Positions 22,282 to 24,085 of a DNA stretch of 64,000 nucleotides are shown in pieces. The stretch comes from Gammaproteobacteria bacterium. GTDB lineage: Bacteria > Pseudomonadota > Gammaproteobacteria > HTCC5015. The stretch lies in contig JACDDA010000002.1 in the NCBI GenBank assembly GCA_013817245.1, positions 62,001-126,000 on the forward strand, in the 5' to 3' direction. Made by a program: the position numbers and the translations under genes. Under the pieces are notes generated by a model. It saw nothing but the letters and a program-made list of their open reading frames with translations. It was not told the origin of the DNA and did no database searches. The stretch's first letter is position 1, and each line of letters opens with the position of its first letter.

Positions 22282-22761
22282 ATGCAAATCAGCAAAAATA
22301 CCGTCGTTAGCATTCACTACCGCTTAAGCGATGAACACGGCGAAATAGAAAACTCTCATAACGCTAGCCCTATGGCGTATTTGCACGGCCAAAATAATAT
22401 TCTTCCTTCGCTCGAAAAAGCCTTAGAAGGCAAAACCAAAGGCGAACAACTCAGCATCACATTAGCCCCTGAAGATGCTTATGGTTTGCGTAACCCACAA
22501 TCTCAACAACGAGTGCCTATTAAACATTTGGTTACTAAAGGTAAATTAACGCCGGGCAAAGCCGTCAAAGTGAATACACAACAAGGCGTTATTAATGCCA
22601 CCGTTGTCAAAGTGGGAAAATTTAATGTCGACCTCGACACCAATCATCCATTAGCGGGCAAACAATTAACTTTTAATATCGAAATCGTTGACGTGCGCGG
22701 GGCTAGTGAAGAAGAACTTTCACATGGTCATGCACATGGCGTGGGCGGGCATGCGCATTAG
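22282..22761 (+). CDS. slyD: FKBP-type peptidyl-prolyl isomerase, SlyD-like
   Basis: Cytosolic prolyl isomerase and chaperone of 159 aa. It begins MQISKNTVVSIHYRLSDEHG and has SPMAYLHGQNNILPSLEKAL, the substrate-binding FKBP core interrupted by the insert-in-flap chaperone domain (about 70-120). The C-terminus is His-rich (HGHAHGVGGHAH), a likely metal-binding tail as in SlyD, though shorter. SlyD helps nickel enzyme maturation in some bacteria; no nickel genes are visible here. Confidence 0.88.
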   Translation: MQISKNTVVSIHYRLSDEHGEIENSHNASPMAYLHGQNNILPSLEKALEGKTKGEQLSITLAPEDAYGLRNPQSQQRVPIKHLVTKGKLTPGKAVKVNTQQGVINATVVKVGKFNVDLDTNHPLAGKQLTFNIEIVDVRGASEEELSHGHAHGVGGHAH

Positions 22762-22895
22762 TTAAACCTACGCTGTATTGCGTAACAGTATTTTTAAAAT
22801 TCAAAAGCATTTCGCCCACTGCTACGCAGCTACGGCGAGTAACTTTTTGTCGTAACAAAAAGTCACCAAAAAGTACTCACCCGAATATTATGCAC

Positions 22896-22920
22896 TTGAA
22901 TGAAATACAATTTCATTCAA
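22896..22920. repeat. Perfect hairpin inside the inverted-repeat element
   Basis: TTGAATGAAAT (22896-22906), three-base spacer, ATTTCATTCAA (22910-22920): an 11-bp perfect stem with loop ACA. There is no T run on either side, so it is not an intrinsic terminator. Confidence 0.75.
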
Positions 22921-22933
22921 GCATTCCCTCGTC

Positions 22934-23027
22934 GTGTTTAAGGGCTAACGCGTCGCCTCAACGCAACATCCTGTTGCGCTCGGCTCACATGAACATCCCT
23001 GTTCATGTGTCGCTATCCCTTAAACAC
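22934..23027. repeat. Nested three-way-junction-like palindrome inside the element
   Basis: An outer 11-bp stem (GTGTTTAAGGG at 22934-22944 with CCCTTAAACAC at 23017-23027) encloses two hairpins: CGCAACA-TCC-TGTTGCG (22962-22978) and CACATGAACA-TCCC-TGTTCATGTG (22986-23009). All three stems are perfect. The shared TCC/TCCC loops suggest the two hairpins are related units. Confidence 0.75.
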
Positions 23028-23398
23028 TGCTCGGCACACTATAACGGGCATTATCCCTTCGTTTAATGCCTTATAACTTACAATACTTCTGTACATTAAT
23101 TTATTTCAAAAACCGAACAAAGCAAATACCCCTTATGGCTCGCCGAATGCTGCAAGACTTGTCGGGGAAAACAAACAGGGAGTTTGTTTTAGTTCCGCCG
23201 CGACAAGGACGTCGCGTCGGAACGACCCGTTACAAATCGTGCAATATGAGGGCACTGCGCGTGTGGTTTACGCGCAGCGAGACATTGGGGGAGAGTATTT
23301 TTTGGTAACTTTTTGTTACGACAAAAAGTTACTCGCTGTAGTCGCGTAGCGACGAGCGAAACGCTTTTAAAAGCTAAAGAATATCGCTGAACAAATTA

Positions 23399-24085
23399 TC
23401 ACAGCTTAATATCATCCGTTGTTCTTAACGCGGATTTGGCAGCCGCTAATAAAAGCTCTGGATCCAAGCGCGACTTGTAATTCGGATTAACATAAGCAAA
23501 ACGAATTAAACCCGTTTGATCAATAATCCACACAGCCGGCACCGGTAATAAATGATGCGTATAACCCGACGTTGCTTCTAGATCAATGCCGTATTCTTTA
23601 TATTTAGCATTCGTTTCATCGTCTAAACGAAACGCAATGCCCAACGCTTGTGCTGCTTCCATGCTGCTGTCTGATAACAATTGATATTGCAGGCTTTGTT
23701 TAGTCTTAGACTCGTTTTGCTTTTCAGGTTTATCAGGACTAACAGCAAGTACTTGATAACCCAATGCAACTAATTGTGATTCTATCGATTGCAATTGGCC
23801 TAATTGAAAATTGCAATAAGGGCACCAACCACCACGATAAAAAACCAGCACCGTGGGTTTTTCTGTCACTAAATTATTTAAACTAACGGCCGTGCCATCC
23901 ATGTTGTTTAACTGGATCGCTGGCAATTTTTCTCCCACTAACAAAGGACGCACATCTTCTGCGTTATTAGGAATAGTTGACGTTGTTGTCGCAACATCAG
24001 CTGCGGGTTCTGCAGGTTTATTGCAGCTAATCGCGATCATGCTCAATACAATCAGTGATATAACAATATAAAGTTTCTTTAACAT
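23399..24085 (-). CDS. Peroxiredoxin-like (AhpC/TSA family) lipoprotein
   Basis: Exported thioredoxin-fold lipoprotein of 228 aa. The signal peptide ends at the lipobox IAISC with Cys21. The active site VLVFYRGGWCPYCNFQLGQL has Cys88 and Cys91, as in peroxiredoxin-like proteins with an added resolving Cys; VLAVSPDKPEK and VPAVWIIDQTGLIRFAYVNPNYKSR complete the fold. It would reduce peroxides or act as a thiol oxidoreductase in the periplasm. RBS AGGAG lies 7 bases before the ATG. Downstream of ubiD in the same orientation, 59 bases apart. Confidence 0.82.
   Translation of the reverse strand: MLKKLYIVISLIVLSMIAISCNKPAEPAADVATTTSTIPNNAEDVRPLLVGEKLPAIQLNNMDGTAVSLNNLVTEKPTVLVFYRGGWCPYCNFQLGQLQSIESQLVALGYQVLAVSPDKPEKQNESKTKQSLQYQLLSDSSMEAAQALGIAFRLDDETNAKYKEYGIDLEATSGYTHHLLPVPAVWIIDQTGLIRFAYVNPNYKSRLDPELLLAAAKSALRTTDDIKL

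Follow-up and report, generated by a model that had tools for sequence, protein, structure and literature searches.

A dispersed palindromic repeat in a gammaproteobacterial genome with two divergent TwoAYGGAY RNAs, whose Csr-type hairpins may serve as CsrA-binding decoys

Background

The regulator CsrA acts on hundreds of mRNAs, and its activity is usually set by a single dedicated decoy RNA or a few of them; the decoys CsrB/CsrC and RsmX/Y/Z are single promoter-driven genes. As described for RsmZ with RsmE, what is recognised is an A(N)GGAX loop on a C-G closed stem, where N and X are looped out and where N is absent from 5-nt loops (PMC4005645). For example, the SL2 hairpin of RsmZ, a C-G closed AAGGAC loop (sequence in PMC12047976), is bound with a Kd of 16 nM (PMC4005645), while the SELEX consensus of CsrA is RUACARGGAUGU (PMC7652899).

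The TwoAYGGAY RNA of Rfam (RF01731, clan CL00106) bears a pair of GGA-loop hairpins on one outer stem. In the passage of Weinberg 2010 on this family it was regarded as "probably RNA" and probably not cis-regulatory (PMC2864571), and in the corresponding passage of a 2014 paper, where Clostridia are discussed, its binding by CsrA was predicted from motif matches (PMC4333381); neither of these two passages mentions repeats. CsrA binding by TwoAYGGAY is already proposed; in the literature searched, no paper places this RNA in multicopy palindromic elements or links it to repeats or MITEs.

Two classes of repeats also have to be compared. QMITE1 and QMITE2 of Coxiella burnetii are short gene-free inverted-repeat elements, present in tens of copies and transcribable to structured sRNAs, in the description of which CsrA is unmentioned (PMC5896051). 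REP/BIME sequences and the R178/R200 repeats of Pseudomonas fluorescens are palindromic intergenic repeats, and for the P. fluorescens repeats a tail-repeat-tail bias is known and has been ascribed to terminator-like structure (PMC2718517). The element described here resembles the former in its build and the latter in its placement, but it differs from QMITEs in that its internal hairpins have Csr-type loops conserved by covariation, and from REPs in that it is far longer, carries paired GGA hairpins and has no adjoining RAYT gene.

Results

The element was found in a window of 64,000 nucleotides, which is part of contig 2 of a gammaproteobacterial genome of 2.27 Mb in 20 contigs, and all positions below are those of the window. 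By blastn against its own genome it spans 22801-23371 (unstranded), with approximate ends, since the copies are conserved over about 22802-23368. Upstream, a plus-strand ORF (22282-22761), by eye putatively SlyD/FKBP-like, ends 40 bp before the element, and downstream lies a convergent minus-strand ORF (23399-24085), putatively redoxin-like by eye from its GWCPYC motif. The preliminary description had reported ungapped 62-bp inverted ends with about nine mismatches, and exactly 9 of 62 positions differ between 22806-22867 and the reverse complement of 23304-23365; the arms can be extended to 22793-22882 (plus strand) and 23289-23378 (minus strand), both with a terminus of type A, where 15 of 90 positions differ (83% identity). 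Within the arms lie the left terminal palindrome at 22839-22866, which reads GTAACTTTTTGT-CGTA-ACAAAAAGTCAC, and the right one at 23305-23332, neither being assigned to a strand. The earlier statement that no convincing gene is present also holds: an ORF of the right half was rejected as protein-coding, because in 4 of 13 copies it is interrupted by in-frame stops and the three codon positions show about the same variation (0.145/0.114/0.157).

Both halves of the element match RF01731, on opposite strands. The left RNA (22927-23034, minus strand) scores 44.2 bits, above the gathering score of 43 bits, and the right RNA (23133-23269, plus strand) scores 42.1 bits, just below it, with an E value of 2e-5 in a local search. 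The two RNAs face away from each other, i.e. they are fused head to head, and the left half aligns with the right half at a score of 103, against a mean of 61 and a maximum of 81.5 for shuffled controls, as expected if the element arose by an old inverted duplication. Folding gives -54.3 kcal/mol (z -9.0) for the minus-strand RNA 22927-23034 and -41.7 kcal/mol (z -4.2) for the plus-strand RNA 23144-23244. The own genome has 30 RF01731 matches, 21 of them above the cut-off, while no match was found in 14 control genomes.

In the left RNA, the outer stem (22934-23027, minus strand, with arms 22934-22950 and 23011-23027) is the 94-bp structure noted earlier, and the two inner hairpins lie where they had been placed. 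Their loops, described as TCC and TCCC on the plus strand, are GGA and GGGA on the minus strand: hairpin 2 (22962-22978) has the loop AGGAU and hairpin 1 (22986-23009) the loop AGGGAU, both closed by C-G, and the latter contains ACAGGGAUGU, the core of the SELEX consensus. Hairpin 3 (22895-22921, minus strand), taken before as a perfect 11-bp hairpin, is indeed a hairpin, only its stem has 12 bp around a 3-nt loop; since its stem covaries and its loop varies freely, it serves as an internal control. The counterpart in the right half (23144-23244, plus strand), which was absent from the preliminary description, adds two more GGA-loop hairpins. Here hairpin 1 (23168-23190) has the loop AGGGA, where 12 other copies have AGGAX (X any base), and hairpin 2 (23192-23223) has the loop AAGGAC closed by C-G, identical in loop and closing pair to the high-affinity RsmZ SL2 (CAAGGACG). 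It is followed by right hairpin 3 (23255-23277, plus strand), the counterpart of left hairpin 3 and likewise with a variable loop.

The structures were then compared among units gathered from the own genome by DNA similarity and conserved anchors, 17 for the left half and 13 for the right. Among the left ones, changes on both sides occur in 35 cells, spread over 10 pairs, and 96.8% of the cells are paired, versus 31-42% when the pairing partners are slid; the right ones show such changes in 37 cells, again over 10 pairs, with 94.7% paired, versus 29-47%. The stem of left hairpin 3 is among the covarying helices, and the stem changes of left hairpin 2 are compensated. Two of the checks named in the preliminary description, namely compensatory changes in the stems and further copies in the genome, came out positive, and its suggestion of a structured RNA is borne out by the compensated stems together with the two RF01731 matches. 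As a test of the strand, the comparison of G-U with A-C cells gave no clear answer, with 46 versus 16 in the own copies, where 16 of the 46 G-U cells fall at one pair, and 3 versus 5 in other genomes. Considering that G-U pairs are few and that DNA palindromes can be corrected arm from arm, these pair statistics cannot prove either the strand or RNA over DNA.

The loops are conserved in a different manner from the stems. Left hairpin 1 has ANGGAT in 17 of 17 copies, left hairpin 2 has AGGAY in 15 and ACGAT in 2 of 17, right hairpin 1 has AGGAX in 12 and AGGGA in 1 of 13, and right hairpin 2 has ARGGAX in 13 of 13. GGA is retained in 58 of 60 hairpins, a count slightly biased toward GGA copies as the collecting step also required one ACA(N)GGA per unit. 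The diversity of the A-GGA letters is 0.028 on the left and 0.019 on the right, while that of N and X in the loops is 0.18 and 0.61, i.e. 6-30 times higher; the stems have 0.12 and 0.14, and the control loops of hairpin 3 have 0.72 and 0.31, with 13 different triplets among the 17 left copies. In other families the hairpin 1 loop is ANGGAY with N being T, A, C or G, which is partly circular evidence because the RF01731 model selects AYGGAY, and hairpin 2 in many of their copies reads ACGAX and has lost the GGA.

Two GGA-loop hairpins on one outer stem are seen alike in the folds, the pair counts and the loops, and each RNA presents several A(N)GGAX loops closed by C-G, as do RNAs that sequester Csr/Rsm proteins. 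What is new here is the RNA identity, which on these grounds is predicted to be paired Csr/Rsm-type GGA-loop hairpins, one pair per strand, and from the loops we infer that a Csr/Rsm protein is their probable reader. The own genome encodes csrA; its product aligns with PDB chain 1y00_A along residues 1-60 (1.6e-28), and in residues 1-58 it hardly differs from CsrA proteins of solved structure. As to canonical decoys, neither RsmY nor RsmZ is found above the cut-off in the own genome; the sub-threshold matches were rejected, the best of each falling on the 3' end of a gene with a terminator.

A 591-bp query matches the own genome in 71 pieces, which fall at about 19 sites, so that the element is repetitive as had been supposed. 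Twelve long copies are 78-86% identical, and several partial copies occur besides. From the centre outwards the long copies share a common plan on both sides, which consists of a head box, the outer stem with its two hairpins, the third hairpin, a T-rich stretch and the terminal palindrome. At the termini, about 40-88 nt are 91-100% identical among most copies, while the cores are less alike, and the termini are of two types that are exchanged between copies. Some copies have an insert of about 50 nt in the loop of the terminal palindrome, containing two hairpins, CCATGGATGG and GCAGGAGC; in others there is a third module, GAACAGGATGTTC...TTGCAGGGATGCAA. These inserts and modules likewise hold GGA loops. 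Several local arrangements were also observed. In one copy a tandem GCCATTCAT run of about six units (G000:C3:264356-264500, i.e. L071:1357-1500) forms a microsatellite within the terminal hairpin loop. Solo terminal modules of about 110 bp, with the CCATGGATGG and GCAGGAGC hairpins, are lined up beside larger copies (L061:1486-2107 and L062:1244-1524), as if they were spreading or recombining independently. The centre of another copy is broken by a further palindromic repeat, GTAGCCTGGATGGAGCCCGTAG...CATCCGGGCTAC (L062:1810-1925).

The element has several features of a MITE, namely terminal inverted repeats, no transposase and many copies. Its dispersal and terminal repeats suggest mobility by transposition or template-driven spread. 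Of the earlier claim of a mobile non-autonomous element, the repetitive part stands, while the mobile part is inferred from the dispersal: no consistent target-site duplication was seen at the copy ends, which merge into several shared AT-rich sequence kinds, no empty site was found, no transposase-like ORF was recognised by eye between or beside the copies, and no full-length element with a transposase and matching ends was found. A REP driven by RAYT is unsupported, since the copies are not beside a RAYT gene and the element termini are absent from the loci of the three Y1_Tnp (RAYT-type) genes in the genome (L167, L168 and L169). Two of these three loci are flanked by palindromic repeats of their own, unrelated to the element. 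An origin from a phage or plasmid was rejected, with no match in the plasmid or phage collection; one match of the 20-nt palindrome in a viral contig (L095) lies in unrelated sequence and was taken as chance. The exact palindrome has no occurrence in the genome contigs collection, and a pattern search with the third module led to a single further MAG, JALSHZ01, Gammaproteobacteria bacterium.

The element is absent from the family's three other genomes, every one from another genus, although csrA is present in these sister genera. RF01731 itself occurs in 23 of 369 genomes in a class sample and in 34 of 398 in a phylum sample (33 within the class and 1 weak match outside), often in several copies, and several families share the two GGA hairpins, the T-rich stretch and the terminal palindrome, some of them also the third hairpin. 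All 23 and all 34 positive genomes (54 distinct ones) have csrA, compared with 313 of all 369 genomes of the class sample; for the 23 positives this gives a probability of about 0.02 by simple arithmetic ignoring phylogeny, and the association is weak because csrA is common in the class. Other arrangements were met among the matches. A second RF01731 architecture (L107, L114 and other matches in G292 and G188, with several copies in G292) lacks the terminal palindromes and has its two AYGGAY hairpins on an outer stem that is long and near-perfect. In family f139 (L178, L181) a GGGAGTCCAGAGGG...CCCTCTGG hairpin comes after the RF01731 RNAs, which makes yet another type of repeat, with several matches per genome in some members. 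Family f160 (L171, L173, L175, L177, L179, L180) has several RF01731 copies per genome of 4-7 Mb; in size and style of sequence these genomes resemble Pseudomonadaceae, a putative assignment, and their copies are possibly the R178/R200 repeats of P. fluorescens.

As to the gene context, judged from ORF orientation by eye, 12 of the 19 sites lie in convergent gene gaps, 7 in tandem ones and none in divergent ones. At least 12 convergent sites would have P = 5e-4 at a background rate of 25%, and for the window itself the figure is 4 of 56. No conserved internal promoter was found, the spacer being variable between copies; promoter-like matches in the element are at about chance level, and one weak promoter-like site on the minus strand of the spacer (23109-23080) is absent from the two further copies inspected by eye. 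Nor is an intrinsic terminator predicted within the element. In view of this lack of a conserved promoter and terminator, the RNA most likely arises by read-through.

Discussion

The explanation that we prefer, and to which we give about an even chance, is a dispersed non-autonomous palindromic repeat with two divergent TwoAYGGAY RNAs, the function of which would be to titrate or tether CsrA. The element would be transcribed mostly via read-through from flanking, often convergent genes, and, with the RNAs arranged head to head, transcription would yield one sense hairpin pair whichever side it came from. A CsrA dimer may bind this pair with its two sites, in which case the copies could jointly titrate CsrA, or tether it at the 3' ends of host transcripts, and the spread of the element, as judged from its dispersal, would be a spread of CsrA-binding sites. 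The proposal agrees with the CsrB/CsrC and RsmX/Y/Z decoys in the C-G closed A(N)GGAX hairpins, up to the RsmZ SL2 loop of right hairpin 2, and differs from them in that the element is dispersed as a repeat and lacks a conserved promoter. It also differs from plain TwoAYGGAY in the fusion of two such RNAs within a multicopy palindromic element that has a hairpin 3 and terminal palindromes.

The strongest alternative, which we consider unlikely though still to be taken seriously, is a selfish MITE/REP-like DNA element, where the hairpins act as DNA cruciforms or single-strand hairpins for a transposase in trans or another DNA-binding protein, the GGA loops are a recognition mark and the covariation comes from arm-templated (quasipalindrome) correction. 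Such a reading fits the stems, which are almost all Watson-Crick with few G-U pairs, the termini, which are more alike than the cores and swapped between two kinds, and the three Y1_Tnp genes; but no transposase gene is recognised beside the copies, the Y1_Tnp loci have no element termini, and templated correction leaves unexplained why A-GGA is fixed while N and X vary, as in the pattern read by Csr/Rsm proteins. The convergent placement could also belong to a 3'-end element, i.e. a bidirectional transcription barrier or a stabiliser of mRNA 3' ends with incidental GGA loops, as the 12 convergent and 0 divergent sites and the terminator-like structure invoked for P. fluorescens would allow. 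We find this rather improbable, for no intrinsic terminator is predicted within, termination needs no conservation of loops, and 7 of the 19 sites are in tandem intergenic regions. Finally, immobile paralogous cis-regulatory or sRNA genes duplicated through ordinary recombination, to which the Rfam class of RF01731 (Cis-reg) might point, are very improbable given copies in unrelated gene neighbourhoods with common terminal inverted repeats, and several copies in many carrier genomes.

Conclusions

To conclude from the comparisons above, the element is best explained as a dispersed, MITE/REP-like repeat with Csr-type hairpins, which may scatter predicted CsrA-binding decoys through genomes. More tentatively, and with the balance somewhat against it, there could be a widespread mobile lineage in Gammaproteobacteria which multiplies CsrA sites as head-to-head decoys, acting as a sponge from whichever side it is transcribed and coupling its copy number to the global post-transcriptional regulation of the host. 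Matches to RF01731 can be copies of a repeat rather than single cis-regulatory genes, and should be read with this caution. Should dispersed repeats contribute tens of CsrA-binding hairpins to each genome, a global regulator would be reset by mobile elements, and an Rfam family of unknown function would acquire a genomic context as well as a direct test.
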